Source of the DNA: Terrabacter sp. MAHUQ-38
GTDB lineage: Bacteria; Actinomycetota; Actinomycetes; Actinomycetales; Dermatophilaceae
Assembly: GCF_014518425.1 (NCBI RefSeq)
Contig: NZ_JACVCU010000003.1
Span: 496,001 to 560,000 of the forward strand
Length of the DNA: 64,000 nucleotides
Reading direction: 5' to 3'
Part shown: in pieces, positions 2-60,822 of the stretch
How the letters are laid out: each line of letters begins with the position of its first letter
Position numbering within the stretch: the stretch's first letter is position 1
The notes under the pieces: generated by a model
Told to the model about the DNA's origin: nothing
The model's input: the letters and a program-made list of their open reading frames with translations, nothing else
Databases searched by the model: none
Made by a program: the position numbers and the translations under genes

Positions 2-442
2 GTCGCCGAGGCCCTGGCCCCGCACTGTTCGTCGATGAACGTGCCCGAGGCCCCTTTCGTGCTGCACCTGCCCAACGTCATGCACCTCGCGACGGACGTC
101 GCGGCCGTCAGCGCCGACGACGCGTCGTCCCTGACCCTGGCCGCCTCGCTGCACCCGTCGGCGGCCGTCGGCGGCACGCCCACCGCGCGCGCCGTCGCGC
201 TGATCGCCGAGCTCGAGCACATGGACCGGGGCCGCTACGCCGGTCCGGTCGGCTGGATGGACGCCCACGGCGACGGGGCGTGGGGCATCGCCCTGCGCAG
301 CGGCGCGTACGCCCCCGACGACCCGTCGCAGCTCACCCTGTATGCCGGGTGCGGCATCGTCGCGGGCTCGGACCCCGAGTCCGAGGTCGCCGAGTCGAAC
401 GCCAAGCTCATCCCGATGCGCGACGCGCTCGCGAGCGACTGA
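2..442 (+). CDS. menF: Isochorismate synthase, C-terminal part (partial gene)
   Basis: The window opens inside this gene; 146 codons and the stop are present. Isochorismate synthase turns chorismate into isochorismate, the first committed step of menaquinone synthesis, in the cytoplasm. Family features seen are HPSAAVGGTPT, the block ELEHMDRGRYAGPVGW, and GCGIVAGSDPESE followed by ESNAKL near the C terminus, all typical of the chorismate-binding (MenF/EntC/TrpE) fold. The gene ends 10 bases before the menD start, so the two are probably co-transcribed. A salicylate- or siderophore-type isochorismate synthase would look similar, but the men neighbours favour MenF. The missing N terminus prevents checking length or start. 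Confidence 0.9.
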   Translation, partial: VAEALAPHCSSMNVPEAPFVLHLPNVMHLATDVAAVSADDASSLTLAASLHPSAAVGGTPTARAVALIAELEHMDRGRYAGPVGWMDAHGDGAWGIALRSGAYAPDDPSQLTLYAGCGIVAGSDPESEVAESNAKLIPMRDALASD

Positions 443-452
443 CGAGACCACG

Positions 453-2201
453 GTGACCGGTCGACGCACGGCTCCCGAGCTCGCGCTGCGGGTCGTCCAG
501 CAGCTGTGGCTAGCGGGCGTGCGCGACGTCGTCCTCGCACCGGGGTCGCGCTCCGCGCCCCTCGCCCTCACCCTCGACGCCGCGGACCGCGACGGCGACC
601 TGCGCCTGCACGTGCGGGTCGACGAGCGGTCAGCAGCCTTCCTCGCCCTCGGGCTGGCCACGGGGTCACGCCGTCCGGTGGCGGTCGTCACGACCTCGGG
701 CACCGCGGTCGGCAACCTGCTGCCCGCCGTCATGGAGGCGCACCACACGGGCCGACGGCTCGTCGTCGTCAGCGCGGACAGGCCGGACCGACTGCGGGGC
801 ACGGGCGCGAACCAGACGACGGAGCAGGCGGGCATCTTTGGCACCTTCGCACCGTGCCACGACCTGACCGCCGACGTGACGGATGACGACCTGGGCACCC
901 TTGTCACACAGGCGTGCTCGCGGCCCGGACCGGCACAGCTCAATGTCCAGCTCGACGGCGACCTGCTCCCCCCGGACCCCGACCCCGACACGTGGTGGCA
1001 GAGCCCGGCCCCCAGGGACGAGCCGGACCAGCACGCCAACTCAGCCACGGCGAGACTCGCGCGCGCAGAGGTCGACGCCGAGCCGTCGGTGTCGCTGCCC
1101 ACCGACGGTGAGGTGCTGCCCCTCGGTCCGCGCACCGTCGTCGTCGCCGGAGACGACGCCGGGCCGGCGGCCAGGTTGCTCGCGGAGGCGGCGAACTGGC
1201 CCCTGGTCGCCGAGCCCACCTCGGGGTCCCGCATCGGCCGGCAGGCCATGCGCACCGGACGCCTGCTCCTCACGACCGACCTGCGCGGAGACATCGACCG
1301 TGTCGTCGTCATCGGACACCCGACGCTCTCGCGGCCCGTCATCAACCTCGTCAGCGACCCCGACCTCGACGTGCTCTCGGTGCGCGGGCGAGACGGCGTC
1401 GCGACCGACCCGGGACGCATCGCCCGCGTGCTCGATGTCGCGCCCCGGGTCGAGGGTCCCGACGACGCGTCGTGGTTCGACGCGTGGCGCGACGCCGACG
1501 ACCGGCTCTCAGCCCTGGTCGACGCGGGTTTGGCTGCCCCGGAAGCAGATCCGTCCCGGGCCCCCGGTCTCGAGGCCGGGATCTCACCGCTCTCCGTCGC
1601 CGCCGTCGTGGCCGACGCCGTCCGCGCCGACACGACGCTCGTGGTCGGCTCGTCCAACCCCGTCCGCGACCTCGACGTGATGGCCCGGCCGTGGCCGCCG
1701 CACGAGCACCGCTTCGTGGTCGGCAACCGCGGGCTCGCCGGCATCGACGGCATGGTGTCGACGGCCGTCGGCATCGCTCTGGGCCGTCCGCGCGCGGCGA
1801 GGACCATCGCCTACCTCGGCGACGTGACGTTCCTGCACGACACGAACGGGCTCCTCGTGGGCCGAGGGGAACGCCGACCAGACCTGACCCTCGTCGTCCT
1901 CAACGACGACGGGGGTGCGATCTTCAGCTCGCTCGAGCAGGGCGACCGCCGCTATGCGAGCGCCTTCGAACGGGTCTTCGCGACGCCGCACGGCACGGAC
2001 CTCGAGGCGCTGTGCGCGGCGCACCACACGGCATACGAACGCGTCGACGACCTCGACCGGCTTCGCGGAGCCCTTGCCGAGTCATCGTCCGGCACAAGGG
2101 TTCTCGAGATTCCGGTGTCCCGCGTCGACCGCCGCGAGGAGGCCGCCTGGCTGCGCGGCCTCGCGCAGCGCGCCGTGCCGCACCGCGACGAGCAGCGCTG
2201 A
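453..2201 (+). CDS. menD: 2-succinyl-5-enolpyruvyl-6-hydroxy-3-cyclohexene-1-carboxylate synthase (MenD)
   Basis: MenD is a thiamine diphosphate enzyme that joins isochorismate with 2-oxoglutarate in menaquinone synthesis. The 582-residue product has the usual length. An early catalytic Glu is seen in VRVDERSAAFLALG (about residue 58), and the ThDP/metal motif GDVTFLHDTNGLL lies near residue 455, followed by NDDGGAIFSSLEQG, the MenD signature. I chose the GTG at 453 because the frame is open further upstream but conserved sequence begins only with APELALRVVQQLW, and because this start follows the menF stop closely. An ATG at 342 would overlap menF by 100 bases and add Ser/Arg-rich sequence unlike the family. 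It converges on the BKACE gene with a 7-base gap. Confidence 0.95.
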   Translation: MTGRRTAPELALRVVQQLWLAGVRDVVLAPGSRSAPLALTLDAADRDGDLRLHVRVDERSAAFLALGLATGSRRPVAVVTTSGTAVGNLLPAVMEAHHTGRRLVVVSADRPDRLRGTGANQTTEQAGIFGTFAPCHDLTADVTDDDLGTLVTQACSRPGPAQLNVQLDGDLLPPDPDPDTWWQSPAPRDEPDQHANSATARLARAEVDAEPSVSLPTDGEVLPLGPRTVVVAGDDAGPAARLLAEAANWPLVAEPTSGSRIGRQAMRTGRLLLTTDLRGDIDRVVVIGHPTLSRPVINLVSDPDLDVLSVRGRDGVATDPGRIARVLDVAPRVEGPDDASWFDAWRDADDRLSALVDAGLAAPEADPSRAPGLEAGISPLSVAAVVADAVRADTTLVVGSSNPVRDLDVMARPWPPHEHRFVVGNRGLAGIDGMVSTAVGIALGRPRAARTIAYLGDVTFLHDTNGLLVGRGERRPDLTLVVLNDDGGAIFSSLEQGDRRYASAFERVFATPHGTDLEALCAAHHTAYERVDDLDRLRGALAESSSGTRVLEIPVSRVDRREEAAWLRGLAQRAVPHRDEQR

Positions 2202-2208
2202 CCGCCCC

Positions 2209-2970: not shown

Positions 2971-3971
2971 CGGGCGCCCCGGCTCGCGAGCAGTGCGTGG
3001 CAGCGGACGAGTCGGTCGCGCCACCACTGCTGGCGGTCGGGCGGGGCCGCCAGGGCAGCGAGGGCTTCGGCGTCGGGCACGGCGCGCCCGGTCGGCAGCA
3101 CGCCCGCCCTCGGGCGAAGGGGGGTCGCCGAGACGTCCCGCTCGAAGAGGCCGACCGTGCCGAGGCCGCAGGCGTGGTCGAGGGTCGGCAGGGCTGCTGC
3201 GAGCGCGACCCCCGCCGCGATGCCGACGCTGGTGTCGAGTGCCGACGACACGACGGCCGGGAGACCACACGCCTCGACGACCTCGAGCGCGCGTGTCACG
3301 CCCGCGAGGGGTGCCACCTTGACGACGACGACGTCAGCCGCCCCGAGGCGCGCCACCCGGAGGGGGTCGTCGGCCTTGCGGATCGACTCGTCTGCGGCGA
3401 TGAGGACGTCAGTGCCTTTGCGTGCCAGTGCCGTTCGCAGCTCGACGAGCTCCTCGACCGTGGCGCAGGGCTGCTCGGCGTACTCGAGCCCGTATGCCGC
3501 AAGGCGCGTGAGCGCGTCGGCGGCGGCGTCGACGTCCCAGCCGCCGTTGGCGTCGACCCGGATGCGCGCGGACGGACCCATGGCGGCCCGGACGGCGGCG
3601 ACACGGTCGAGGTCGTCACCGAGCGCCTGCCTCCGCTCCGCGACCTTGACCTTGGCGGTGGTGCAGCCGTCGAACCGGGCCAGGACGTCCGGCACCCGGT
3701 CGGGCGGGACGGCCGGGACGGTGGCGTTGACGGGGACGGCGTCGCGCACGGGAGCCGGCCAGGCGGCATACGCGGCCTCGAGCGCGGCGGCCAGCCAACG
3801 CGCGGACTCGTCGTCGGCGTACTCGACGAAGGGCGCGAACTCGCCCCAGCCGGAAGGGCCGTCGAGGAGCACCGCCTCACGCACGTCGACGCCGCGGAAC
3901 CGTACGCGCATCGGCAGGGCGACGACATGCGCCCGGTCGAGCAGCTCGTCGGCGGTGGGCAGGGGCGTCAT
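2967..3971 (-). CDS. menC: o-Succinylbenzoate synthase (MenC)
   Basis: MenC dehydrates SHCHC to o-succinylbenzoate and belongs to the enolase superfamily of Mg-dependent enzymes. The 334-residue product shows the actinobacterial form: capping domain with GWGEFAPFVEYADDESARW, the catalytic lysine region TAKVKVAE (about residue 105), the metal ligands in IRVDANGGWD and EYAEQPCA, and a late AADESI segment. The ATG at 3971 gives a normal N terminus. It reads on the minus strand between menD and menB, probably from the same promoter region as the small membrane gene at 3995-4246, and is translationally coupled to the BKACE gene. Confidence 0.93.
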   Translation of the reverse strand: MTPLPTADELLDRAHVVALPMRVRFRGVDVREAVLLDGPSGWGEFAPFVEYADDESARWLAAALEAAYAAWPAPVRDAVPVNATVPAVPPDRVPDVLARFDGCTTAKVKVAERRQALGDDLDRVAAVRAAMGPSARIRVDANGGWDVDAAADALTRLAAYGLEYAEQPCATVEELVELRTALARKGTDVLIAADESIRKADDPLRVARLGAADVVVVKVAPLAGVTRALEVVEACGLPAVVSSALDTSVGIAAGVALAAALPTLDHACGLGTVGLFERDVSATPLRPRAGVLPTGRAVPDAEALAALAAPPDRQQWWRDRLVRCHALLASRGAR

Positions 3972-4375: not shown

Positions 4376-4858
4376 TCACCGGCCGAGGCGGACGTCGGCG
4401 GCGTTGTCGACGGCGGCAGCGATGCGGTCCCGGTGCACCTGCGACATCTGCGGCAGCGCGTCCAGCGGGAACCACCGAGCGTCGGTCGACTCGTCATCAC
4501 CGGGCCGCGGGCTGCCCGACACCCACCGGCACCGGAACGTGTGGTCGAGGTACTGGGCGAGGTCGCCGTTGACGTGCGTGACGACGCCCGTCGCGGACAC
4601 CCACACGAGCCGCTCGATCTCGGCGACGACGCACGCCTCCTCCTCGACCTCGCGCACGGCCGCCACGTGCGGGTGCTCACCCGGGTCGACGATCCCGGTC
4701 ACCGGGGTCCACGCACCGTTGTCGGAGCGCTTGACCAGCAGCACCTCGTCGACGCCCGTGGCTGCGGTACGCAGCACCACGGCCGTGACACCCGGCATCC
4801 ACAGCAGCTCGCGACCGACCATCGAACGCAGGTGGGAGACGTAGGGAGGGATCGGCAT
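4376..4858 (-). CDS. NUDIX hydrolase
   Basis: NUDIX enzymes hydrolyse nucleoside diphosphates linked to another group. The 160-residue product carries a full Nudix box, GIVDPGEHPHVAAVREVEEE, near residues 67-86, with the REVEEE metal ligands. The MPIPPYVSHLRS start at 4858 is preferred over a much longer open frame that only shadows menB. There is no ribosome binding site; instead TAGGGT lies ten bases ahead of the ATG, so the message is probably leaderless. It diverges from menB across a 36-base gap. The substrate is unknown. Confidence 0.88.
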   Translation of the reverse strand: MPIPPYVSHLRSMVGRELLWMPGVTAVVLRTAATGVDEVLLVKRSDNGAWTPVTGIVDPGEHPHVAAVREVEEEACVVAEIERLVWVSATGVVTHVNGDLAQYLDHTFRCRWVSGSPRPGDDESTDARWFPLDALPQMSQVHRDRIAAAVDNAADVRLGR

Positions 4859-4862
4859 ACGG

Positions 4863-4890: not shown

Positions 4891-4894
4891 GCTC

Positions 4895-5854: not shown

Positions 5855-5949
5855 CGGCTTGATCAGTATGCCGCCGGGTCCACCCTCTTGCTCATCCGCC
5901 GCCCCGTGTCCCTCCAGAGGAGCGGCGACCCCGTGCGCGAGGAGGTCCG

Positions 5950-7966: not shown

Positions 7967-9193
7967 ATGGCAGACCTGACCAACGCCAGCACGTCCGTCC
8001 AGGCCATGCACCTGCTCGTCGTCGGCCATGACGGCTCGGACTTCGTGCTCGGACGCCCCGATCTCGGCGTGTTCGTGGCGGTCCCGGAGCCGGGAGCCGT
8101 GTTCGTCAACGCCGTGAAGTCGGGCGCCTCCTTGGAAGAGGCGACGGAGCGGGCGACCGAGGTCGCCGGCGAGGTCGTCGACGGGCTGGACTTCGTGAAG
8201 AGCCTCGCGAACGCCGGCCTGCTCGATGCGCCGGCCGCCACTGGCCCGGGCGCGGGTCGTGGCCGGGCCATCCCATGGGTCGACGGGGTGCGCGCTGAGG
8301 TGGCCAGACCCTTCTTCAGCCGAACCGCGCACGCGATCTACGCCGCGGCGACGGCATTCGTCGTCGCCGTGATCGTGCTGGTCCCGGCACTGCGACCGCG
8401 CTTCCAGGACGTGTGGTGGGTCCCCGACCCGGTCACATCGGTGCTCCTGCTGCTTCCGATCACCGTGGCGCTCGGCGCGCTGCACGAGGCGTGGCACTGG
8501 CTCGCCGGGCGCGCCCTCGGCGTCCCGGCGACGTTCCGGGTCAGCCATCGCGGCGTCTTCCTCGTCTTCGAGACCGACCTGTCGCAGATCGTCGTCGTCG
8601 ACCGCCGGCGGCGCTACATGGCGTTCCTCGCAGGCATGGCCTTCGACGTCACCCTTCTCGCCGTGATCCTCGCTGTGCGCCTGGCGGACCGCGCCGGAGT
8701 CGCAACTCTCCCCGGGTGGCTGGGACGGCTGCTCGCGGCCATCGCGCTCGGCCAGGTGTTTCGGCTTGTCTGGCAGTTCTGCGCCGTCGCGCAGAGGAGC
8801 GACATGTATGCCGTGCTCGCCAACGCCCTGCGCTGCCACGATCTGCACCGGGCGACCGTCCTCACGACCAAGAACCGCATGTGGAGCCTGACCGACGAGG
8901 AGCGCCGTGAGCTGGCGGCGATCAGCGCCCACGACCGCAGGGTGGCCTCGTGGTTCGGGGTGGTCTACCTCGCCGGCACGGTCGCGATGATGTGGTTCGC
9001 GGTGGCGTTCGCGCTGCCCGGTGCGCTGGGCCTGCTCGGTTGGGCGGGGGCCAACCTTGTCCATCCGGCAGTCGCGACCTGGACCTTCTGGTCCTCGGCA
9101 GCGGTGGCCGTCTACGTCGCGACCCGGTGGTTGCTGCCTCCCGTCCTGGCCATTCGCGAGCGCCGGATGCGGAAGGCGGGGGTGCTCCGATGA
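7967..9193 (+). CDS. Membrane M50-type peptidase with PqqD-like N-terminal domain
   Basis: A 408-residue protein. Residues about 18-85 (DFVLGRPDLGVFVAVPEPGA, then VVDGLDFVKSLANAGLLD) look like a PqqD/RiPP recognition element. A multi-spanning membrane region follows with the zinc motif HEAWH at residues 173-177, as in site-2 protease-like M50 enzymes annotated as peptide zinc metalloproteases in peptide loci. Several more membrane helices fill the C-terminal half. It probably cleaves or exports the small peptide encoded just upstream. Two ATG codons are possible (7943 and 7967); I prefer 7967 because of AGAGGG before it and the better domain start. The stop overlaps the next start (ATGA). Confidence 0.75.
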   Translation: MADLTNASTSVQAMHLLVVGHDGSDFVLGRPDLGVFVAVPEPGAVFVNAVKSGASLEEATERATEVAGEVVDGLDFVKSLANAGLLDAPAATGPGAGRGRAIPWVDGVRAEVARPFFSRTAHAIYAAATAFVVAVIVLVPALRPRFQDVWWVPDPVTSVLLLLPITVALGALHEAWHWLAGRALGVPATFRVSHRGVFLVFETDLSQIVVVDRRRRYMAFLAGMAFDVTLLAVILAVRLADRAGVATLPGWLGRLLAAIALGQVFRLVWQFCAVAQRSDMYAVLANALRCHDLHRATVLTTKNRMWSLTDEERRELAAISAHDRRVASWFGVVYLAGTVAMMWFAVAFALPGALGLLGWAGANLVHPAVATWTFWSSAAVAVYVATRWLLPPVLAIRERRMRKAGVLR

Positions 9194-9781: not shown

Positions 9782-10007
9782 TCAGCTGGGCGTGCCGTCG
9801 CCCGGCTCGTCGCGGTAGTCGCCGAAGAACGGGGTGCACCGCTCCCTCGACCCGGGCGTATGCCGTGCCGCCCGGCCGCAGGACCCGGCTCGTCTGGACG
9901 TCGGCGGGCGTCGCGAAGCCGTCACGGCCGCCGCTCACGGACGCGACCGCGAGCTCGCTCCTCCCGGCGAGGCTGGTCGCGACCCGGGCAACCGCCCGGC
10001 ACCCGGA
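9782..10007 (-). pseudogene. Frameshifted gene remnant of unknown family
   Basis: Between DUF3105 and the MFS gene, the minus strand reads as coding in one frame (LAGRSELAVASVSGGRDG, later VLRPGGTAYARVEG) down to about 9843. There the G/C preference of third positions jumps to another frame that continues CTPFFGDYRDEPGDGTPS and stops at 9782. No start codon or full domain is visible. I read it as the eroded 3' end of a gene cut by a rearrangement. The family is not recognised. Confidence 0.4.
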
Positions 10008-10024: not shown

Positions 10025-11689
10025 GTGGACCCGAGCGACGACCGCCGCAGCAGTGCTGGCCGTCCTGCGCCCGGGACCGCCGAGCCGGACACCTCGGGCG
10101 TGCCGGCGGGCGGTCGCCCCGCCGGCTACCGGCAGCCGCCGCGGACGACGGCGGCCAACGGCGCGAAGGCCGTGGGCCGCGGTGTCGGGCGGGTCGCCGC
10201 CGCCACGGCCCGGCTGACCACGCGCACCGGCCGGTTCGCCGCGGCGAAGGCCCACGCGTACACCAACTCCGGTGGCGCCGGCGAGACCGGCCTGGCCCGA
10301 GTCACCGAGCTGCACGCCAGCCACACCGCCGGCGACACGATCATGACCCTGGCTCTCGCCGGCACGCTCTTCTTCAACCCGCAGACCGCGCAGGCCCGCA
10401 GCGCCGTCGCGACCTTCCTGCTGCTGACCATGGTCCCGTTCGTCCTCGTCGCTCCACTCATCGGACCCCTGCTCGACCGGTTCTCGCACGGGCGCCGCTG
10501 GGCCATCGGCACGACCCTCGCACTGCGCGGGTTCCTCTGCTGGGTCCTCGGCGAGGCGATCAACACCGACAGCAGCTGGCTCTTCCCGACGGCCCTCGGC
10601 TGCCTCGTCGCCTCCCGCGCCTACACGATCACGCGCGCGGCTGCCGTGCCACGGCTCCTGCCGCCCGGCACGACCCTCGTCAAGGCCAACTCCCGCGTCT
10701 CGATGGCGGGCATCGTGGGGGCGGTCCTCGGCGGCATCCTCGGCGGGGTCGCCATGCTCGCCGGTTCGTCGTGGGCCCTGCGCGTCGCCTTCGTCGTCTT
10801 CGTCTTCGGCACCGTCCAGGCGATCCGGCTCCCAGCGCGGGTCGACTCGTCGGCGGGCGAGGTGTCGATCGAGGACACGAGTCCCATCGCGGTCGCCGGC
10901 GCCCACGCGCGGACCGACGGCGCGGAAGACAAGCACCAGGCTGCGGTCGACCGGCGGGGCGGCGATCGTCCGGTGCGGGCGTCCTCGCTGCGCGGCACCC
11001 AACGCGGCTGGACCGCCGACCCCGTGCGGCGGCATACGCCCTCGGGCGGTGAGGCGCTCACCGTCGACTCGTCCGGCCCGCTCGGTCGTCTCCGCCGGAG
11101 GCGGCAGGCGATCCCGTGGCCGGTGATGCACGCGATGTGGTCGACGGGCGGCACCCGGGTGCTGACCGGCTTCCTCATCATGTTCATGGCGTTCCTCGCC
11201 AAGGAGCACCCCATCGACGGCCTGCGCGGCGAGCTCGTCCTCGCCTTCGTCGCGGCCGGCATCGGGGTCGGCAACGGCCTGGGCAGCATGGTGGGCAATG
11301 TCGTGCGCGACCAACGGCCCGAGCGCATCGCGATGGTGTCGGTGCTCGCCGCCACGCTGTGCTGCATCGCGACGGGGATCTGGTACGGCGTGTGGACGCT
11401 CGTGCTGCTCGGTCTCGTCCAGGGCATGTCGGCGCAGCTCGCCAAGCTGTGCTTCGACGCCCTCGTGCAGCGGGAGGTCCCGGAGAACGTCCGCACGTCG
11501 GTCTTCGCGTGGTCCGAGACGATGCTCCAGGTGCTGTGGGTCGTCGGCGGCGCCCTGGGCATCGTGCTGCCGCTCAACCCCTACATCGGCTTCCCCGTGT
11601 GCGCCGTCGCGCTCGTGTGGACCGTCGTCATGGCGGCGCGCCAGCGACAGCGTGCCGTCGCTGCACCGACCCCGAGGCGCGCCGGATGA
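10025..11689 (+). CDS. MFS transporter
   Basis: A 554-residue major facilitator protein. A hydrophilic, Gly/Ala/Arg-rich N-terminal arm of about 90 residues precedes helices such as TIMTLALAGTLFF and TFLLLTMVPFVLVAPLIGPL, then DRFSHGRRW, an MFS loop-2/3-like motif. A polar loop of about 90 residues separates the two halves, and the second half has GNGLGSMVGNVVRDQ. Substrate unknown. The GTG at 10025 follows GGAGAAGGCAGGA; the open frame upstream to 9635 is not coding-like. The stop overlaps the menE start (ATGA). The association with menE is common in related actinobacteria as I recall, so it may belong to the older men order. Confidence 0.85.
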   Translation: MDPSDDRRSSAGRPAPGTAEPDTSGVPAGGRPAGYRQPPRTTAANGAKAVGRGVGRVAAATARLTTRTGRFAAAKAHAYTNSGGAGETGLARVTELHASHTAGDTIMTLALAGTLFFNPQTAQARSAVATFLLLTMVPFVLVAPLIGPLLDRFSHGRRWAIGTTLALRGFLCWVLGEAINTDSSWLFPTALGCLVASRAYTITRAAAVPRLLPPGTTLVKANSRVSMAGIVGAVLGGILGGVAMLAGSSWALRVAFVVFVFGTVQAIRLPARVDSSAGEVSIEDTSPIAVAGAHARTDGAEDKHQAAVDRRGGDRPVRASSLRGTQRGWTADPVRRHTPSGGEALTVDSSGPLGRLRRRRQAIPWPVMHAMWSTGGTRVLTGFLIMFMAFLAKEHPIDGLRGELVLAFVAAGIGVGNGLGSMVGNVVRDQRPERIAMVSVLAATLCCIATGIWYGVWTLVLLGLVQGMSAQLAKLCFDALVQREVPENVRTSVFAWSETMLQVLWVVGGALGIVLPLNPYIGFPVCAVALVWTVVMAARQRQRAVAAPTPRRAG

Positions 11690-12870
11690 GCGCGACGTCC
11701 CCGCGCCCCCTCGCCGTGCCGGCCGGGCCTGCCGTGCTCGACGTCCTGCCCGACCTCGTGGCGGCGCTGACCGGGCGCTCCCCCGTGCTGCCGTATGCCG
11801 CGGGCGACCCGGCGCCGTCCGTGCCGTCGCACGACCCCGACGAGCTGCCCGACGGGCTGGCCCTGGTGATCGGCACGTCCGGATCGACCGGCCGGCCCAA
11901 GCGGGCACTGCTCACGGCCGAGGCGCTCGAGCGGTCCGCGTGGGCGACGCACCAGGTGCTCGGCGGGAGCGGCGGGTGGCTGCTCGCGATGCCCGCCCAC
12001 CACATCGCGGGCGTGCAGGTGCTGGTGCGCTCGCTCGCGTCAGGCGTCGCGCCGGCCGTGCTCGACCTGCGCCGCGGCTTCAGCGCCGAGGCCTTCGCTG
12101 CGGCCGCCCCGACGGTGCGCACGAGCCGCGCCGCGCCGCGCCGCTACACGGCGCTCGTGCCGACCCAGCTCGCGCGGCTCGTGGACGACCCCGCCGGACG
12201 AGAGGCGCTGATCGGCTTCGACGGCGTGCTCGTGGGGGGCGCCGCGACGCCGCCTGCGCTGGTGGAGCAGGCCCACGGCCTCGGAGTCCGGCTGTGCCTG
12301 ACGTACGGCATGAGCGAGACGGCCGGCGGCTGCGTCTACGACGGCGTCCCGCTGCCCGTGAGCCGGGTGCACGTCGACAACGACCGGCACGTCGTGCTCG
12401 GCGGCGACACCGTCGCCCACGGCTACCTCGGGGAGGACGCGCCGGGCCGCGACGCGTTCAGCGTCGACCCCGACGGCGTGCGGTGGTTCCGCACCGACGA
12501 CCTCGGCCACTTCGACGACGACGGTCTGCTCGTCATAGACGGCCGCGCCGACGACGTCATCAACAGCGGCGGCCTCAAGATCAACCCCGGTGTCGTCGAG
12601 GACGCCCTGACCCGCCACCTCGACGACGTCCTCGACGTCGTCGTGCTCGGCCTGCCCGACCCTGAGTGGGGCGAGGCCGTCTGTGCCGCAGTCACGCTCG
12701 TCGACCCCACGGGCCGGCTGACGACTCGAGAGGTGCGCGACCGGCTGCGAGGCATCCTGCCCGACGCGGCACTCCCGCGACGCGTGCTCGTCCTCCCCGC
12801 GATCCCGCAGCGCGGGCCCGGCAAACCCGACCGGGCGGCGATCCGCAGAGCGGTGCAAGGCCTCGACTGA
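11686..12870 (+). CDS. menE: o-Succinylbenzoate-CoA ligase (MenE)
   Basis: MenE activates o-succinylbenzoate with ATP and CoA. The 394-residue product is of the short actinobacterial type. It has the ANL-superfamily P-loop LVIGTSGSTGRPKRALLT (about residues 64-81), the A5 motif LTYGMSETAGGCVYDG, the A7/A8 region WFRTDDLGHFDDDGLLVIDG followed by RADDVINSGGLKINP, and the catalytic lysine near the end in GPGKPDR. The start overlaps the MFS stop, so both are on one message. Confidence 0.95.
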   Translation: MSATSPRPLAVPAGPAVLDVLPDLVAALTGRSPVLPYAAGDPAPSVPSHDPDELPDGLALVIGTSGSTGRPKRALLTAEALERSAWATHQVLGGSGGWLLAMPAHHIAGVQVLVRSLASGVAPAVLDLRRGFSAEAFAAAAPTVRTSRAAPRRYTALVPTQLARLVDDPAGREALIGFDGVLVGGAATPPALVEQAHGLGVRLCLTYGMSETAGGCVYDGVPLPVSRVHVDNDRHVVLGGDTVAHGYLGEDAPGRDAFSVDPDGVRWFRTDDLGHFDDDGLLVIDGRADDVINSGGLKINPGVVEDALTRHLDDVLDVVVLGLPDPEWGEAVCAAVTLVDPTGRLTTREVRDRLRGILPDAALPRRVLVLPAIPQRGPGKPDRAAIRRAVQGLD

Positions 12871-13204: not shown

Positions 13205-14080
13205 ATGGCCACCCTGTCCCAGTGGTTCGAGGGCGCTCGCCCCCGCACGCTCCCCGCCGCTGTCTCGCCCATCCTCGTCGGCACGGGTGCCGCCTACCAG
13301 ACCGGTCACGTCGTCTGGGCGTATGCCGTCCTGGCCCTTGTCGTGGCCCTCGCCCTGCAGGTCGGCGTGAACTACGCGAACGACTACTCCGACGGCATCC
13401 GCGGCACCGACGAGGTCCGCGTCGGGCCCGTTCGCCTCGTCGGCCAGCGGCTCGCCGCGCCCCGCTCGGTCAAGATCGCCGCCTTCGCCTGCTTCTTCTT
13501 CGCCGGGCTCATGGGTCTGGCGCTCGTCGGGCTCTCCGGCCTCTGGGTGATGATCCCCATCGGAGCGGCCGCCGTCGCCGCCGCCTGGTACTACACCGGC
13601 GGTTCCCGGCCCTACGGCTACCTCGGTCTCGGTGAGATCTTCGTCTTCGTCTTCTTCGGGCTCGTCGCGACGCTCGGCACCATGGCGACCATGACCCCGC
13701 CGACGTCGGCGGGCTGGTGGGGTGCCGTCGGTGTCGGGGCCCTCGCCTCGGCGATCCTCGTCGCCAACAACCTGCGCGACATCCCGACCGACCGCGAGCA
13801 CGGCAAGCGGACGCTCGCGGTCCGGATGGGCGAGGGCGGCACGCGCATCTTCTACGTGGCGCTCGTGGCCGTCGCGTTCGTCATGACGGGCCTCGCCTCG
13901 TTCACGTCGCCCTGGGCGCTCCTCGCCGTCCTCGCGGCCCCGCTCGCCCTGCGTCCCATGCAGGCCGTCGTCGGCGGCGCGTCGGGCCCGGGCCTCGTCC
14001 CGGCTCTTGCGGGCACGGGCCGCTTCCAGCTCGCCTGGTCGCTGCTGCTCGCCGTCGGCCTCGCTCTCGGCCGCACCTGA
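13205..14080 (+). CDS. menA: 1,4-Dihydroxy-2-naphthoate polyprenyltransferase (MenA)
   Basis: MenA attaches the polyprenyl chain to dihydroxynaphthoate in the membrane. The 291-residue UbiA-superfamily protein starts ARPRTLPAAVSPILVG, has the first Asp-rich motif NYANDYSDGIRGTDE (about residue 60) and the second, NNLRDIPTDREHGKRTLAV (about residue 195), and eight or nine membrane helices. It is 20 bases after the PLDc_N gene and closes the plus-strand men group. It converges on the monooxygenase gene with a 59-base gap. Confidence 0.95.
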   Translation: MATLSQWFEGARPRTLPAAVSPILVGTGAAYQTGHVVWAYAVLALVVALALQVGVNYANDYSDGIRGTDEVRVGPVRLVGQRLAAPRSVKIAAFACFFFAGLMGLALVGLSGLWVMIPIGAAAVAAAWYYTGGSRPYGYLGLGEIFVFVFFGLVATLGTMATMTPPTSAGWWGAVGVGALASAILVANNLRDIPTDREHGKRTLAVRMGEGGTRIFYVALVAVAFVMTGLASFTSPWALLAVLAAPLALRPMQAVVGGASGPGLVPALAGTGRFQLAWSLLLAVGLALGRT

Positions 14081-21895: not shown

Positions 21896-22022
21896 GGCCC
21901 ACCTCCCTCGATCGAGGCGGCACCCCGGCGGCGCCGCCGTCACCGACCAGCGTCCTACTGGTCGGCCCTGGCCACAATGCCCTGGCGTATGCCGGGTGGC
22001 GCCGTCCGCGCCCGCCCTCCGG

Positions 22023-35755: not shown

Positions 35756-35955
35756 CGGCTCCTCCTGTGCTCGCTTGTCGTCGGTCGCTCGGGCGCGCGT
35801 CGCGCCCGGGCCCTGCACGTGCGACGGAGGAGGCTCGCTCCCCCGCACGTGAAGCCTACCGAGGCCCCACGGCATACGCTCCGGCGCACCGCTGCCGATG
35901 TGGCGAGCCTCTCTCCGAGGAGGCCTCGACGAGGGGACCTGCCCTCAAACGCGAA

Positions 35956-44151: not shown

Positions 44152-44273
44152 CCGGGCCGCCGTCCGACGGCGGCCCGGTCACGTCGACCCGCGCGTCGGG
44201 CTGCGGCAGACTGCCCGCACGAGACCACCTCGCGTGCCGGCGCGACACGACCGGCTCCGGGAGAGGAGCGCGT

Positions 44274-47132: not shown

Positions 47133-47439
47133 CCCGCGCTGACCCTCTCAAGCCCGCCACCCGGCATACCCCTGCAGTCATCCAGCCGCGCGCCAACCCA
47201 GCCCCGGCGAGACTCACGCGCCGGAGTGGCGAGCGGGCCCGCCGGGTACGAACAAGACATACGAATATGCCGACACACCATGCGGCACCTGTCCGCTCAC
47301 GGCGAACAGCGGCCGAACCTGAGCCGATCACGCTCAGGATGGGGAACAGGAGGGATCCAACCCGCGTTGGTCGGGGTGTGCTCGTCGACAGCGGGCACGG
47401 ATAGCATCGAGATGTCTCTCGATCAGTCAGGAGAAGAAC
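47133..47439 (+). promoter_or_regulatory. clpC upstream region with ClgR-like operator
   Basis: No gene is supported in these 307 bases. CGC-TCACG-GCG with flanks (47290-47307) fits the published ClgR operator pattern CGC-N5-GCG of actinobacterial clp promoters. TAGCAT at 47402-47407 is a likely -10 box. One octamer copy lies at 47162-47169. The region is less GC-rich around 47250-47280 (GACATACGAATATGCC). ClgR control is inferred. Confidence 0.45.
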
Positions 47440-50126: not shown

Positions 50127-50270
50127 CCGTTGCTGGGGACCGGACCCCACGGCATACGTCCCCGGTGCGGGAATGGGCAGGCGGTCTCATACCGGGGTCG
50201 TACGCCGCCTCCCGCGGGTGCCGACCTGCGACCGATGTGCCGGGGTGGGTCGCGCCGCGAGGGTTGGGCC

Positions 50271-51074
50271 ATGAGCCACCACGACCCCGCCGGTATGCCG
50301 GCCGCCGCGCCCGAGCGCGCCCCCTCCCCCGCCCTCGCCGGGCCCCCGCCCGCCTCTGTGCCGGCGGACACCTCGCGCGACCTCGTCGCCCGCGACCTCG
50401 TCATGACGTACGGCAAGGGCACGTCCGCCGGCCCGCCCGCCCTCGGCGGCGTGGACCTGACGATCGGTGCCGGCGAGAGCCTGGCCGTCATGGGCCCGTC
50501 CGGGTCGGGCAAGACGACACTGCTGCACGTCCTCGCGGGGATCCTGCGACCGACTGGCGGCCAGGTGCTCTGGCGCGGCCGGGACATCGCGCGGATGTCG
50601 GACCGTGAGCGAACCGTGCTGCGCCGCAAGGACTTCGGCTTCGTCTTCCAGCAGGGGATGCTCCTGCCCGAGCTGCCGGCGATCGAGAACGTCGCCCTTC
50701 CGCTCATGCTCGACGGCGTCTCTCGGTCCGAGGCGACCGCCCGTGCCGCGACCCTCTTCCCGCCCCTCGGCCTCTCGGGCCTCGAGAAGCGCCGTCCCGG
50801 CGAGCTGTCCGGTGGCCAGGCGCAACGCGTCGCGATCGCGCGGGCGCTCGTCGCCCGGCCGGGTGTCGTGTTCGCCGACGAGCCGACGGGCGCGTTGGAC
50901 CAGACGACGAGTGCCGAGGTCATGCACCACCTGACCCAGCTCGCCGCCCACACCGGCGCCTCGCTCGTCGTCGTGACCCACGACGCGAACGTCGCGGCGT
51001 GGTGCCACGGCGTCGCCCGCGTGCGCGACGGCCGCATCGTCGAGCGCGCCACGTCCCTGGGCGTGGCCCGGTGA
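50271..51074 (+). CDS. ABC transporter ATP-binding protein (MacB/FtsE type)
   Basis: A 267-residue ATPase. Walker A is MGPSGSGKTTLLHVLAG (about residue 75), the Q-loop FVFQQGMLLPELPAIENVAL, the signature LSGGQAQRVAIARALVARP, Walker B VVFADEPTGALD and the H-loop VVTHD. ATG at 50271 begins with a Pro/Ala-rich arm of 40 residues; a frame upstream to 50130 is less likely. Its stop overlaps the permease start. It and the permease form a two-gene exporter of unknown substrate, often linked to peptides or lipids. Confidence 0.9.
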   Translation: MSHHDPAGMPAAAPERAPSPALAGPPPASVPADTSRDLVARDLVMTYGKGTSAGPPALGGVDLTIGAGESLAVMGPSGSGKTTLLHVLAGILRPTGGQVLWRGRDIARMSDRERTVLRRKDFGFVFQQGMLLPELPAIENVALPLMLDGVSRSEATARAATLFPPLGLSGLEKRRPGELSGGQAQRVAIARALVARPGVVFADEPTGALDQTTSAEVMHHLTQLAAHTGASLVVVTHDANVAAWCHGVARVRDGRIVERATSLGVAR

Positions 51075-55613: not shown

Positions 55614-56440
55614 CCGCCGGCTCCTTGGTAGTGACGGGTCCCAGCCCTCCAGCAGAGGGCGGCGATGCTCCACGCGAGCAGGGCGGCGAGGGGCGTGCAC
55701 CAGCCCAGCCACGTCGGTGCGAGGTGGTCGCCCGGAAGGTCGAGAATGGCCACCGCCGGGACGTAGGCGACGAACGCGGTCGGCACGACGAACGTCCAGA
55801 AGATCCGCAGCGGGTCGGGGAAGACCTGCTGGCTCTGCTGGGCGGCATACGACCCGCCGTACGTGAACGTGTTGGTGAACTCCGCCCCGTCGACGAGGAA
55901 GAACTGCACGCCGCCGGCCGCCGTGAACAGCGCCGAGAAGATCGCGGTCCCGCTCACGACGGTCAGCACGATGAGGGCCACGGTGGCCGGGGACCACGCG
56001 ATGTCGGCGGTCGTCAGCGCGACGACGAGCGCGACGACGGCGACCGACAGGCGGCCGATCCGACGCAGCGACAGGTCACTCGTCATGAGCTGCGTCAGCA
56101 GCGGCAGCGGGCGCACGTAGAACGCGTCGATCTGGCCCGCGCGGATGAACCGCGGCAGCTGGTCGAGGTGCCCGACGAACATGTCGGCGAGGGAGAACGC
56201 CAGGTTCGACAGGGCGAACACGAGCAGCGCCGCCGTGAAGTCGAGGCCGCCGAGCACGTCGACGTTGTGGAAGATGACCCAGACCTCGGCGAACTCTGCG
56301 AGGCCGACGCCGATGGTGCCGAGGACGTCGGTCACGAAGGACGTCTTGTACTGCATCTGCGCACGGGCCCGGGAGGCGAGCAGCACCCGGTAGGGGCGCA
56401 GCCGCTGCTCGAGCGTGGAGCCCGCCATCCGGTCAGCCAC
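55610..56440 (-). CDS. ABC-2 family transporter permease (first of two)
   Basis: A 276-residue membrane protein with about six helices. It starts LRPYRVLLASRARAQMQYKT and has FVGHLDQLPRFIRAGQIDAF, the conserved coupling region of this ABC-2 subfamily. The GTG at 56440 is chosen because GGAGG lies six bases ahead. It overlaps the second permease gene by eight bases. Substrate unknown. Confidence 0.85.
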   Translation of the reverse strand: MADRMAGSTLEQRLRPYRVLLASRARAQMQYKTSFVTDVLGTIGVGLAEFAEVWVIFHNVDVLGGLDFTAALLVFALSNLAFSLADMFVGHLDQLPRFIRAGQIDAFYVRPLPLLTQLMTSDLSLRRIGRLSVAVVALVVALTTADIAWSPATVALIVLTVVSGTAIFSALFTAAGGVQFFLVDGAEFTNTFTYGGSYAAQQSQQVFPDPLRIFWTFVVPTAFVAYVPAVAILDLPGDHLAPTWLGWCTPLAALLAWSIAALCWRAGTRHYQGAGG

Positions 56441-57298: not shown

Positions 57299-57304
57299 CA
57301 AGAC

Positions 57305-57865: not shown

Positions 57866-59409
57866 CTCTCTCCACGCTGACCGCAGTCCCCTCCGGGCTG
57901 ATGCCCGCCGTCGCCCGTCTCGCCGACGAGGCACCCAAGGAGCCGTATGCCGGTGACGGCCAGCTCGTCGCCGCCTGCCTGCTCGGCATCCTCTCTGTCG
58001 TGCTGCTCATCACGGTCGTCAAGCTCCACCCGTTCCTGTCGCTGATGCTCGGCTCTGCGGTGCTGGGCGCGGTCGCGACGATGCCGGCCGGCGACATCGT
58101 CGACAGCTTCACCACCGGCTTCGGGTCGACCACCGGCTCCGTCGGGGTCCTCATCGCGCTCGGCGCCATGATCGGCAAGATGCTCGAGGAGTCGGGCGGC
58201 GCCAACAAGATCGTGTCGACGCTCGTCGGTCGGGTGGGCCCCAACGGGCTGCCGTGGATGATGGCCGCCATCGCGGCGATCCTCGGCCTGCCGCTCTTCT
58301 TCGAGGTTGGCGTCGTGCTCCTCGTACCGGTCGTCATCCTCGTGGCGAGGCGAACCGGCCTGTCGGTCATGAAGATCGGCATCCCCGCGCTCGCCGGACT
58401 GTCGGTCCTGCACGGACTCGTGCCCCCGCACCCCGGCCCACTCACGGCCATCGGACTGCTCAACGCGGACCTCGGCCGCACCCTGCTCTACGGGATCATC
58501 GTCGCCATCCCGACCGTCATCGTGGCCGGACCCGTGCTGGCCCGCTTCGTCGACCGCTGGGTGCCCAAGCACGTCGAGGCTCTCGTCGGGGTACCGGCCG
58601 TGGTCGGTTCCGGTGCTGGCAGCGGCCGCACGACCACTGCCACTCGAGCGTCCGGCGGCACCGCCGTCGACCACGAGCGCAAGCGCGACGGCATGGAGGA
58701 CCTCGATGACCTCGAGGCGCCCCTTGCGGCCGGCCGACGTCGCGTCGGCTTCGGCTCGGCCATCGTCGCCATCACGCTGCCCGTCGTCCTCATGCTCATC
58801 GACGCGATCACCAAGCTCCTCGTGCCCGACGAGGAGAGCGGCATACGCCAGGTCGTCGACGTCTTCGGTACGCCCGTCGTGGCCCTGCTCATCGCGGTCA
58901 TCTTCTGCTACTTCCGCCTCGGTCTCGCATCGGGCATGTCGCGCAGCCAGGTGAGCGGCACGTTCGGCGCGAGCCTGCCCGGCATCGCCGGCATCATCCT
59001 CATCGTGGCGGCCGGCGGTGGCTTCAAGCAGACCCTCGTCGACGCCGGCGTCGGCAACGTCATCAAGGACTGGGCCACCGGCGTCAACATCTCGGTGCTG
59101 CTCCTGGGCTGGCTCGTCGCCGTGCTCATCCGCCTCGGCACCGGCTCGGCCACCGTCGCGACCATCACCGCGGCCGGCATCGTCGGACCACTCGCATCGA
59201 CGTTGACGACGAGCCACCTCGCCCTCCTCGTCCTCGCCATCGGGTGCGGCTCGCTCTTCTTCAGCCACGTCAACGATGCCGGCTTCTGGCTCGTCAAGGA
59301 GTACTTCGGGCTCACGGTCGGCGAGACGATCAAGTCGTGGTCGGTCATGGAGACCGTCATCTCCGTCGTCGGCTTCGCGCTGGTCATGCTGCTCAGCCTC
59401 GTGGTCTAG
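57862..59409 (+). CDS. gntP: Gluconate:H+ symporter (GntP family)
   Basis: A 515-residue permease that brings gluconate into the cell for GntK. It has about 12 membrane helices; family features are PALAGLSVLHGLVPPHPGPL, LFFEVGVVLLVPVVILVARR, GSATVATITAAGIVGPL and LFFSHVNDAGFWLVKEYFGL. A polar loop of about 70 residues near position 235-305 (with RKRDGMEDLDDLEAPLAAG) is longer than usual. The ATG overlaps the gntK stop. A Leu-Thr-rich N-terminal arm precedes the first helix. Confidence 0.94.
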   Translation: MTLSTLTAVPSGLMPAVARLADEAPKEPYAGDGQLVAACLLGILSVVLLITVVKLHPFLSLMLGSAVLGAVATMPAGDIVDSFTTGFGSTTGSVGVLIALGAMIGKMLEESGGANKIVSTLVGRVGPNGLPWMMAAIAAILGLPLFFEVGVVLLVPVVILVARRTGLSVMKIGIPALAGLSVLHGLVPPHPGPLTAIGLLNADLGRTLLYGIIVAIPTVIVAGPVLARFVDRWVPKHVEALVGVPAVVGSGAGSGRTTTATRASGGTAVDHERKRDGMEDLDDLEAPLAAGRRRVGFGSAIVAITLPVVLMLIDAITKLLVPDEESGIRQVVDVFGTPVVALLIAVIFCYFRLGLASGMSRSQVSGTFGASLPGIAGIILIVAAGGGFKQTLVDAGVGNVIKDWATGVNISVLLLGWLVAVLIRLGTGSATVATITAAGIVGPLASTLTTSHLALLVLAIGCGSLFFSHVNDAGFWLVKEYFGLTVGETIKSWSVMETVISVVGFALVMLLSLVV

Positions 59410-59413
59410 GGCG

Positions 59414-59803
59414 ATGGCGACACGACCACGCGACCTCTCACGGGAGGCGCTCGAGTTCCTCACGGTCCGACACCTGGCGACCCTGACCACGCTGCGCCCC
59501 GACGGCTCTCCCCACGTCGTCCCCGTGGGGTTCACCTGGGACAGCGAAGAGTCCGTCGCACGGGTCATCACGAGCAGGGGCAGCCGCAAGGCCCTCAATG
59601 CCCTCGCCGGCTGCCCGGCTGTTCTGTGCCAGGTCGACGGCAGGCACTGGCTCTCGCTCCAGGGCACGGCGCGCGTCCTGGTCGATGCCGCCGCAGTCAC
59701 CGACGCCGAGCAGCGGTATGCCGCCCGCTACAAACAGCCGCGCCCCAACCCCGAGCGCGTGGTGATCCTCGTCGACGTCCAGACGGTGCTCGGCAACCTC
59801 TGA
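59414..59803 (+). CDS. PPOX/F420-dependent oxidoreductase family protein
   Basis: A 129-residue split-barrel flavin- or F420-binding protein. The pattern LTVRHLATLTTLRPDGSPHV, PVGFTWDSEE and SRGSRKALNALAGCPAVLCQ fits the TIGR03618-like F420 family common in actinobacteria. It starts four bases after gntP, so it is probably on the same message. Cofactor and substrate are unknown. Confidence 0.82.
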   Translation: MATRPRDLSREALEFLTVRHLATLTTLRPDGSPHVVPVGFTWDSEESVARVITSRGSRKALNALAGCPAVLCQVDGRHWLSLQGTARVLVDAAAVTDAEQRYAARYKQPRPNPERVVILVDVQTVLGNL

Positions 59804-59836
59804 CCGGGCCCACCACCCCCCTACTCGAGGTTGAGG

Positions 59837-60730
59837 TCACGCCGGGAGACGGAAACGGTTGCGTGACAGCGGCTCCACGAGGCCGTCGGCGACCAGTGAG
59901 TCCAGGCACCGCATCACCTGGCCCGGGTCGTCGGCGGAGCTCTCGAGGCCGGACAGCGGTACTGCGGCGTGCGCCTCGCGCAGTCGCCGCAGCAGCTCGC
60001 CGCGCACCTGGCGGTCCGTGCCGTGCCACGTCTGGCCGCGGCGTGGCGGTCCGTCGTACGCGGGCCGACCGTCGAGGTTCCAGGCGCACAGGTCGGCCAC
60101 GGGGCACTCGTCGCAACGGGGCCCCCGGGCCACACACACGAGCGCACCGAGCTCCATCACGGCGACGTTCCACGTGGTGGCGGTGTCTCGGTCGGCCGGC
60201 ATCGAGTCGGCGGCGAGCTTCGCCTCGGCGCGGTTCAGGGTGAGGTTCGGGTACGCCTTGCCCTCGACGGTGCGCGCGAGCACCCTCCTCACGTTGGTGT
60301 CGACGACGACCTCCGGGATGCCGAAGGCGAAGCACGCGACGGCGGCCGCGGTGTAGGCACCGACTCCGGGCAGGGCGAGCAGCTCCTGGGGGCTGCCGGG
60401 CACCTCGCCGGCGTGCCGCTCGACCATCGCCGTCGCGGCCTCGTGCAACCGCAGTGCCCGTCGCGGGTAGCCCAACCTCCCCCACGCGCGCACGGCGTCA
60501 CCGGGGGCGGCGGCTGCGAGGGCTGCGGGCGTGGGCCAGCGACGCATCCACTCGCGCCAGGCCGGCTCGACCCGGGCGAGCGGCGTCTGCTGCGACATCA
60601 CCTCGGACAGGAAGACGCCCCAGGCGCTGCAGTCAGGCTGGCGCCACGGCAGCTGCTTGCGACCCGCCTCCGCGTACCACGCGTTGACCCGCTCGTGGAG
60701 CGGTGCCAGGGGAGCTCGAGGGGACGGCAT
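59837..60730 (-). CDS. mutY: A/G-specific adenine glycosylase (MutY)
   Basis: MutY removes adenine mispaired with 8-oxoguanine. The 297-residue protein has LSEVMSQQTPLARVEPAWRE with the catalytic Glu, the helix-hairpin-helix LLALPGVGAYTAAAVACFAF (about residues 115-134), the VVVDTNVRRVLAR block with the catalytic Asp, and the iron-sulfur cluster CVARGPRCDECPVADLC. The NUDIX-like C-terminal domain is absent or very reduced, as in other actinobacteria. The ATG at 60730 lies inside an octamer copy, with TAGCGT six bases ahead, so it is probably leaderless. Confidence 0.93.
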   Translation of the reverse strand: MPSPRAPLAPLHERVNAWYAEAGRKQLPWRQPDCSAWGVFLSEVMSQQTPLARVEPAWREWMRRWPTPAALAAAAPGDAVRAWGRLGYPRRALRLHEAATAMVERHAGEVPGSPQELLALPGVGAYTAAAVACFAFGIPEVVVDTNVRRVLARTVEGKAYPNLTLNRAEAKLAADSMPADRDTATTWNVAVMELGALVCVARGPRCDECPVADLCAWNLDGRPAYDGPPRRGQTWHGTDRQVRGELLRRLREAHAAVPLSGLESSADDPGQVMRCLDSLVADGLVEPLSRNRFRLPA

Positions 60731-60822
60731 ACGGACACGCTAGTGCCGACCCTGCGAGGGGCTGTTCGGGGGATCTCGGGGGCGCAGGCGCAGGCCCGCC
60801 GGGGCCGTGAGCTCCCGAGCGT

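Follow-up and report, generated by a model that had tools for sequence, protein, structure and literature searches.

GTATGCCG is a word under selection at coding and intergenic positions with no codon effect behind it, and it is a trait of the family Dermatophilaceae, in which 107 of 186 genomes carry at least 390 copies. The selection, the existence of dialects, the lack of replichore bias, the inverted pairs and the mutual repulsion of same-strand copies indicate a selected signal that has polarity and is read strand by strand. On balance, and by no means firmly, we take GTATGCCG to be a self-recognition word resembling a DNA uptake sequence. More tentatively, and stopping somewhat short of calling it probable, we propose that an actinobacterial family has its own uptake system, with a polar word in single-base dialects, an unrelated word in Janibacter and a sister genus, reading that is confined to one strand and extends over about 1 kb, and a receptor presumably located on a Tad-type pilus. 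To our knowledge, very few bacterial groups are known to take up DNA in a sequence-specific manner; we know of no such system outside the Neisseriaceae and Pasteurellaceae, and of no direction-specific spacing in one. Why uptake words evolve is debated, with mate recognition and passive drive as the alternatives given in the excerpts of PMC1939737. The GTATGCCG-rich genomes, the dialects, the replacement of the word and the clades in which none was seen provide a natural experiment for the origin of uptake words, and directional reading can be measured by its signature, the strand-specific spacing. The word could also be of use as a tag on DNA meant for transforming these genera.

Abundance of the word in the window and the genome

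The window, i.e. the whole 64-kb stretch of DNA that was analysed, contains 35 exact copies of GTATGCCG, 17 on the + strand and 18 on the - strand, reproducing every coordinate of the first-pass annotation. The over-representation claimed there is borne out by a chance level of 0.79 copies (100 dinucleotide shuffles; maximum 4) and an order-3 Markov expectation of 1.8, as is the claim that the full octamer is concerned: GTATGCC is followed by G in 35/35 cases, and TATGCCG is preceded by G in 35/39. According to our own simple gene caller, on which all gene contexts rest, 26 copies are genic, and most of these (21/26) read Tyr-Ala or Ala-Tyr, as had been noted. The 16 Tyr-Ala copies are at 340..347, 8806..8813, 11793..11800, 13321..13328, 40147..40154, 46958..46965, 57945..57952 and 59716..59723 on the + strand, and at 3764..3771, 16687..16694, 18898..18905, 24343..24350 (delta-aminolevulinic acid dehydratase), 26132..26139, 28791..28798 (glutamyl-tRNA reductase), 37257..37264 and 55843..55850 on the - strand. 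The five Ala-Tyr copies, all antisense, are at 3492..3499 (+), 37093..37100 (+), 2029..2036 (-; a TPP-enzyme gene, presumably menD-like), 32007..32014 (-) and 44821..44828 (-). The copies at 37093 and 37257 form an inverted pair within one class II (D, K, N) tRNA synthetase gene. Other reading frames, likewise seen earlier, are represented by three Arg-His-Thr copies, including the antisense ones at 11030..11037 (-) and 33811..33818 (+), and by an antisense Gly-Ile-Arg copy at 58839..58846 (-); a single Met-Pro copy lies close to a gene start at 50293..50300 (+), inverted with respect to the intergenic copy at 50150..50157 (-).

The nine remaining copies are intergenic or at gene edges. Together with that at 50150, those at 5866..5873 (+), 21987..21994 (+), 31196..31203 (+), 35870..35877 (-) and 47162..47169 (-) make up the six sites previously named as lying between genes, all of them intergenic in the new gene calls, which add 9858..9865 (+). 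Three copies had been placed across start codons. Two do span them, at 44272..44279 (+; FMN-dependent dehydrogenase gene) and 60725..60732 (-; HhH-GPD, MutY-like gene); for the third, at 4853..4860 (-), this reading was not confirmed, a doubtful + strand gene being called there.

The whole 5.16-Mb genome has 2,024 copies, 1006 on the + and 1018 on the - strand, and the reversed pattern occurs 309 times. The word is over-represented on both strands and in coding as well as intergenic DNA, as expected of DUS and USS. In 464 kb, GTATGCCG is the top octamer at Markov orders 2 and 3 and shows a 3.5-fold excess at order 4; at orders 5 and 6 it is not among the best 14 words listed. Orders 5-6, the higher of which the first-pass annotation had proposed as a control, were rejected as a test: they are blind to GTATGCCG because nearly all its 7-mers sit inside the word, so that the expectation approaches the observed number (34.1 in the window at maximal order).

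Among the 24 one-mismatch neighbours, Markov orders 3 and 4 reveal no clearly drained precursor. GTATGACG (3 vs. 15.4), GTATGGCG (4 vs. 10.1) and GTATGTCG (2 vs. 10.1) are low relative to order 3 but near the order-4 expectation, GTATGCCC is low at order 4 (6 vs. 29.2) but not at order 3, and GGATGCCG and GTACGCCG are above expectation; several neighbours of the GTATG type fall below expectation, although the Markov models used for them are inflated by sub-words of GTATGCCG. The missing precursor bears on the idea of a methylation or HIP1-like repair-conversion site, in which a conserved orphan methylase or a mismatch-repair bias would make or protect the word. A genome-wide, strand-symmetric and clade-specific distribution would suit such a site, but GTATGCCG is not palindromic and the same-strand repulsion described below is not predicted by mutation or methylation bias, making this explanation very unlikely in our view. 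HIP1 of cyanobacteria is a very abundant octameric palindrome found in genes and gaps; GTATGCCG shares its abundance across both, but is non-palindromic and has strand-specific spacing.

Selection beyond codon usage

The large share of Tyr-Ala and Ala-Tyr copies in the window is what would be expected if codon usage or Tyr-Ala dipeptides produced the word as an artefact. Synonymous shuffling is a valid test of GTATGCCG, and the word passes it, with 161 coding copies vs. 10.6 in the shuffles (30 shuffles; largest 21), which refutes the artefact. Moreover, copies are 2.4-fold denser in intergenic DNA (0.92 per kb) than in genes (0.39 per kb), and the choice of TAT depends on the flanking Gs: where Tyr-Ala is spelled TAT/TAC-GCC, the TAT codon accounts for 99/143 cases with G on both sides, compared to 4/37 with G only before, 14/66 with G only after and 5/48 with neither. 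An artefact of this kind is therefore almost certainly not the cause. The earlier argument that codon usage is insufficient was correct.

Occupancy of the positions that the proteins permit is 101/224 (G000) and 90/158 (G362) in the Tyr-Ala frame and 165/580 (G000) and 203/473 (G362) over all frames. Conservation at synonymous sites in orthologues, a check suggested at the outset, was assessed where orthologous codons encode the same amino acids: the exact word is kept in 202/350 comparisons vs. 8.7 expected (G327, which also carries GGATGCCG, being counted as a GTATGCCG genome), and in 5/116 vs. 2.3 expected for genomes without GTATGCCG. The tree is midpoint-rooted and based on seven genes of one region (34/38 loci with enough of these genes). 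The codon-shuffle results exclude G305, G400 and G313 and the stretches L125, L156, L159 and L172, for which the caller gave no usable genes, and the shuffles across genomes cover sets longer than 10 kb.

Dialects and candidate reader genes

The first-pass annotation mentioned no dialects and no spacing that depends on the strand. GGATGCCG and GTATGCGG differ from GTATGCCG by a single-base change. GGATGCCG has 2,099-4,480 copies in 7/186 genomes and at most 1,336 in the other 179; in G452 it occurs 94 times in coding sequences (16.9 expected) and 44 times in intergenic DNA (2.0). GTATGCGG has 511-1,204 copies in 4/4 genomes of g104, and the corresponding values in G316 are 40 (3.3) and 10 (0.4). 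The three words share the core ATGC plus a final G, and such clade-specific dialects with a common core are found in DUS and USS as well. Outside this core lies the unrelated CGAAGGGG, with 1,198-3,180 copies in 19/19 genomes of two genera, one of which is apparently Janibacter, and no more than 396 in any of the remaining 167. In some clades no word was seen in the 15-54 kb sampled per genome, in which a rarer word could be missed. Word-poor stretches correspond to a glycosyltransferase cluster and a sugar-uptake region, and the 49-kb Tetrasphaera phage TJE1 has 2 copies of the word vs. 0.63 expected.

Two further candidate dialects were rejected. GTACGCCG is abundant in g97, g99, g123, G136 and G367, and in G298 and G372 it exceeds synonymous shuffles 4.5-fold. 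However, GTACG words are likewise over-represented in the Nocardioides (3-fold) and Kribbella (6-fold) controls; the Streptomyces control has no such excess. CGATGCGG is confined to G366 (2,007 copies; at most 1,110 in the 49 other genomes searched).

None of the genes tested across family genomes (ComEC, TadE, PilT and RecC) tracks the word, and the search for a reader protein found none. ComEC is present in 38/38 genomes with or without it (the match in G395 is partial, and L046 of G451 is an arbitrary stretch and not the comEC region) and TadE in 48/48, so loss of either gene does not explain word-poor genomes. In a DUS- or USS-type system, a minor pilin of the uptake pilus would bind the word. 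Type IVa pili were set aside, as PilT is above the cut-off in just 2/186 genomes, with strong matches below it in 2 more. RecBCD was likewise dropped as a determinant, RecC being found in 10/19 GTATGCCG-rich and 11/19 GTATGCCG-poor genomes, the poor set including other-word genomes. Among the matches listed, literature searches brought up no account of members of this family being naturally transformable, and text searches with the letters of the word gave no title on a bacterial genome word among the matches listed.

Strand-specific spacing and known systems

Copies of GTATGCCG on the same strand show mutual repulsion at distances below about 0.8 kb, whereas opposite-strand copies do not, so that the two orientations act as separate series. 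Leaving out stretches known to be duplicated under two names, there are 27 inverted pairs 8-50 bp apart (10.7 expected), 1 same-strand pair under 50 bp (10.0 expected) and 15 same-strand pairs at 200-400 bp (47.0 expected); inspection of the sequences, with hairpins judged by eye, shows close copies to be mostly inverted pairs. The repulsion at 50-800 bp persists when the null is drawn from protein-permitted positions, with 8 vs. 18.3 (lowest null 10 of 200) and 19 vs. 37.8 (lowest null 24). The other words show it less well: for GGATGCCG in G452 it is seen only at 200 bp and above, for CGAAGGGG in G342 it is weak and to some extent affects both strands, and for CGAAGGGG in g5 it is absent (27 sites; same-strand pairs at 50-1600 bp are 1.2-1.9 times as frequent as expected). 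From the same-strand repulsion we infer that the word is read with direction.

Sampled in 20 stretches of 20 kb, with the two halves told apart by GC skew, the closed relative G362 has no replichore bias (49+/39- vs. 76+/66-). A chromosome-organisation signal (KOPS-, matS- or nucleoid-protein-like) would be abundant and genome-wide, as GTATGCCG is, but the word lacks the origin-to-terminus orientation of KOPS in this genome, its both-strand spacing fits an exponential over 400 kb (168 sites, KS p 0.38) and its dialects turn over inside one family, leaving such a signal, if anything, slightly less credible than a methylation or repair site. Of the functions proposed in the first-pass annotation, that of a selected word stands, with an uptake sequence as the best fit because of the dialects, the absent replichore bias in G362, the inverted pairs and the intergenic surplus; the methylation or HIP1-type site is disfavoured. 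In an uptake system, a DNA-binding competence protein would prefer DNA with the word, incoming DNA would recombine into the chromosome, and copies would spread and be kept by biased uptake, while a changed reader specificity would shift the word to a new dialect. One copy would serve DNA on one side; because the word is read with direction, a second same-strand copy within the fragment or recombination tract would add little. Points against the uptake reading are that no tested gene tracks the word, that the matches listed included no natural transformation in the family, that the spacing depends on orientation, unlike uptake in the Pasteurellaceae, and that the repulsion is less marked for the other words.

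Strand-specific repulsion might also be expected of a Chi-like recombination word, read on one strand by RecBCD or AdnAB while resecting a double-strand break: such a word would have to occur in both orientations, and repeating it on one strand within about 1 kb would be redundant. GTATGCCG has the eight bases and lack of palindromy to match, word density is low in some accessory-looking regions and one phage, single-substitution variants are described for Chi too (excerpts of PMC8022716), and regulation of AdnAB by Chi was 'not known' according to an excerpt of PMC4824097 (2016). Against this, polarisation along the replichores, by which Chi is recognised in the excerpts of PMC8022716, is absent in G362, RecC does not separate rich from poor genomes, and some clades have no word in the sampled stretches, yet recombination is needed everywhere; the filling of 28-43% of protein-permitted positions also looks, in our judgement, strong for Chi. 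We therefore consider a Chi-like word unlikely, though it is the chief competitor of the uptake reading; if correct, GTATGCCG would be a candidate Chi word for an actinobacterial helicase-nuclease.

Compared with known systems, Chi (GCTGGTGG and relatives) is similar in being eight-base and non-palindromic with single-base variants, and in the polar reading we infer here, but is polarised on the leading strand (excerpts of PMC8022716). The traits of GTATGCCG resemble those described in the excerpts of PMC3630211, PMC1939737 and PMC7811141 for the DUS of Neisseriaceae and the USS of Pasteurellaceae. DUS, in the excerpts of PMC3630211, have thousands of family-specific copies on both strands, related dialects that mirror the phylogeny, some members without a dialect, cases of two dialects sharing a genome (cf. 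g106), inverted pairs and a shared core, which is CTG there and ATGC plus a final G here. In contrast to DUS, the word described here belongs to Gram-positive actinobacteria in which type IVa PilT is rare, gives way in two genera to an unrelated word, and has same-strand repulsion with opposite strands unaffected. USS differ in sequence but are likewise abundant, in surplus between genes, of two types within a family, partly arranged as inverted pairs and free of replichore bias (excerpts of PMC1939737, PMC7811141 and PMC2346458). Finally, uptake in the Pasteurellaceae is reported as orientation-independent in the excerpts of PMC1939737, whereas the spacing of GTATGCCG is orientation-specific.

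Selection on the octamer in and between genes

The window has a GC content of 71-74% and belongs to a genome (G000) of 5.16 Mb in 18 contigs. It holds 35 copies of GTATGCCG (17 on the plus and 18 on the minus strand; 0.79 in shuffles), and the whole genome holds 1,006 plus and 1,018 minus copies, with 309 for the reversed control. ComEC comparison points to two Terrabacter isolates, at 78 and 77%, as the closest named relatives. GTDB places Terrabacter in Dermatophilaceae; NCBI taxonomy puts the genus in Intrasporangiaceae. Our family sample also includes Knoellia remsis (G277), Arsenicicoccus bolidensis (G301), Humibacillus xanthopallidus (G330) and Phycicoccus elongatus (G439).

GTATGCCG is a selected word and no product of codon usage. 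Across 464 kb with 61 + 313 called genes, 161 copies are coding; 30 synonymous shuffles average 10.6 and never exceed 21, and all six frame classes lie above their shuffle mean. Where Tyr-Ala is written TAT/TAC-GCC and flanked by two Gs, TAT is used in 99 of 143 cases; its share is 4/37 with the preceding G only, 14/66 with the following G only and 5/48 with no G. The word is present at 0.92 copies per kb between genes and 0.39 within them. It fills 165 of the 580 positions permitted by the protein sequence in G000 and 203 of 473 in G362, a closed relative genome; for the Tyr-Ala frame the figures are 101/224 and 90/158. Among 18 word-rich genomes, the exact octamer is kept in 202 of 350 ordered orthologue comparisons with identical amino acids, where codon usage predicts 8.7, and the same analysis in nine genomes without the word gives 5/116 vs. 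2.3 expected; the comparisons, having ancestry in common, are not independent of each other. The base following intergenic copies is A in 0/54 cases in G000-like genomes, 0/64 in G362 and 3/50 in other genomes, and G is preferred four or five bases downstream. Because of these flank preferences, the recognised site probably extends past the octamer.

Density climbs with local GC (Spearman 0.44 and 0.34 in the two genomes tested). The longest word-free stretches in 400 kb of G000 lie in a cluster of glycosyltransferase and UDP-sugar dehydrogenase genes and close to a sugar-uptake region. Tetrasphaera phage TJE1 has two copies in 49 kb, with 0.63 predicted from its own composition; a Tetrasphaera-named metagenome stretch has 18 in 22 kb.

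Distribution, dialects and other words

In a survey of the order (297 genomes), none of the 273 genomes outside the family reached 200 copies of GTATGCCG. Within the family, the count is 390 or higher in 107 of 186 genomes and lower in the other 79. Some of these others carry different words, among them two single-base dialects: GGATGCCG has 2,099-4,480 copies in seven of the 186 genomes (next highest 1,336 and 1,239), and GTATGCGG has 511-1,204 in all four genomes of genus g104 and 364-365 in two of genus g12, with at most 208 in the other 40 searched. Codon-controlled tests gave observed/expected counts of 94/16.9 (coding) and 44/2.0 (intergenic) for GGATGCCG in G452, and of 40/3.3 and 10/0.4 for GTATGCGG in G316. 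Genus g106 carries both GTATGCCG and GGATGCCG: two of its species have 4,480 and 3,619 copies of GGATGCCG with 361 and 288 of GTATGCCG, and the other two have 2,195 and 2,099 with 1,217 and 1,189. In one Phycicoccus metagenome stretch, 14 copies of GAATGCCG (0.9 expected) accompany eight of GTATGCCG. The unrelated CGAAGGGG occurs 1,198-3,180 times in all 19 genomes of genera g9 and g5; none of the other 167 has more than 396 copies. We take g9 or a neighbouring genus to be Janibacter, because a Janibacter indicus stretch (L119) has the identical top word.

Besides L119, CGAAGGGG was seen in stretches of G342, G352, G066 and G374 (L054, L055, L058, L091, L210-L224). Its intergenic copies have G next in 44/55 and G two bases upstream in 43/55, and its close pairs include inverted ones. 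G302 (L047, L065, L104), placed in genus g3 with Arsenicicoccus bolidensis, has only 37 GTATGCCG and carries GGTCTACG 21 times per 54 kb (coding 17/3.8, intergenic 4/0.3). GTACG octamers (GTACGCCG, GTACGTCG, GTACGACG and others) are about threefold or more above synonymous shuffles in Nocardioides and Kribbella stretches (L126, L128, L135, L137, L144, L148, L150, L154, L175, L176, L178, L180, L182), and CGAGCAGC/GCTGCTCG is about 2-3 times above them in stretches of G000, G452, G302, G367 and genus g11.

On a midpoint-rooted tree of seven genes from 34 genomes, GTATGCCG is present in both deep halves, two GGATGCCG genomes form one nested clade and three CGAAGGGG genomes another. G327, a member of g106, falls outside the GGATGCCG clade, which suggests that GGATGCCG probably arose more than once. 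Of 44 aligned word positions, nine carry different words from genome to genome, each genome having its own; seven of the nine involve the doubtful GTACGCCG, and at five, two supported words are matched (GTATGCCG/GTATGCGG at three, GTATGCCG/GGATGCCG at two). Such positions look as if they had been converted in place.

Strand-specific spacing

We pooled 810 GTATGCCG sites from G000, G362 and 28 further stretches and compared their spacing with a uniform expectation. Same-strand pairs are depleted at short range, with observed/expected counts of 1/10.0 (8-50 bp), 13/35.5 (50-200 bp), 15/47.0 (200-400 bp), 56/92.7 (400-800 bp) and 153/180.5 (800-1600 bp), and a ratio of 1.03 beyond. The corresponding opposite-strand counts are 27/10.7, 43/38.0, 67/50.2, 105/99.2 and 210/193.0. 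Six control octamers of G000, whose counts are small, showed no comparable pattern. Against 200 nulls in which equal numbers of sites were drawn from protein-permitted positions, same-strand pairs at 50-800 bp number 8 in G000, where 18.3 are expected and the lowest null is 10; G362 has 19 such pairs (37.8 expected, lowest null 24). Opposite-strand pairs number 25 vs. 18.0 and 60 vs. 49.7. Pairs closer than 60 bp in these two genomes are almost all inverted and mostly intergenic, and several form perfect or near-perfect hairpins, as judged by eye.

Same-strand repulsion is less marked for the other words. The same-strand ratio for GGATGCCG in G452 is 0.56-0.67 at 200-1600 bp, and 1.13 and 0.85 under 200 bp; GTATGCGG in G316 has one same-strand pair under 800 bp vs. 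6.3; CGATGCGG in G366 gives 0.65-0.85 at 200-800 bp. For CGAAGGGG in G342, ratios at 400-1600 bp are 0.50 and 0.77 (same strand) and 0.87 and 0.82 (opposite strand), and the 27 CGAAGGGG sites of g5 show no same-strand depletion at 50-1600 bp.

GTATGCCG has no replichore preference in G362: nine stretches at 0.21-1.91 Mb, all with positive GC skew, carry 49 plus and 39 minus copies, and ten at 2.10-4.01 Mb, nine with negative skew, carry 76 and 66. This count omits the first stretch (10 plus, 11 minus), and the halves are set by GC skew rather than by a located origin.

Candidate mechanisms and known systems

Methylation or mutation bias does not account for the strand-wise repulsion nor, easily, for the in-place conservation of GTATGCCG. 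Repulsion with independent strands would be the trace expected of a directional signal with diminishing returns, and two known kinds of signal are or could be directional, uptake words and Chi. A Chi-like recombination signal is a standing rival, matching both the orientation-dependent spacing and the eight-base length; the lack of replichore polarity, the dialects, the inverted pairs, the clades in which no word was seen and the high occupancy favour the uptake type. ComEC is found in 38/38 genomes and TadE in 48/48, RecC in 10/19 GTATGCCG-rich vs. 11/19 GTATGCCG-poor genomes, and PilT beyond the cut-off in 2/186. No reader of GTATGCCG was therefore identified among them. The comEA-comEC region was seen in four family members (L027, L029, L047, L060), near what are presumably leuS-, degV-, sir2- and lexA-type genes.

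The matches listed from open-licence literature, weak evidence of absence, include no description of GTATGCCG or of uptake words in actinobacteria or the family. Transformation of the actinobacterium Micrococcus luteus is reported to require tad loci (PMC12849477), and Neisseriaceae are described as having eight dialects with a common core as well as dialect-free members (PMC3630211). Papers on USS/DUS describe absent orientation bias, an intergenic surplus, inverted repeats and uptake independent of orientation (PMC1939737, PMC7811141, PMC2346458). GTATGCCG is likewise without replichore bias (G362) and has an intergenic surplus and inverted pairs; in contrast to the orientation-independent uptake reported for USS, its spacing is orientation-specific.
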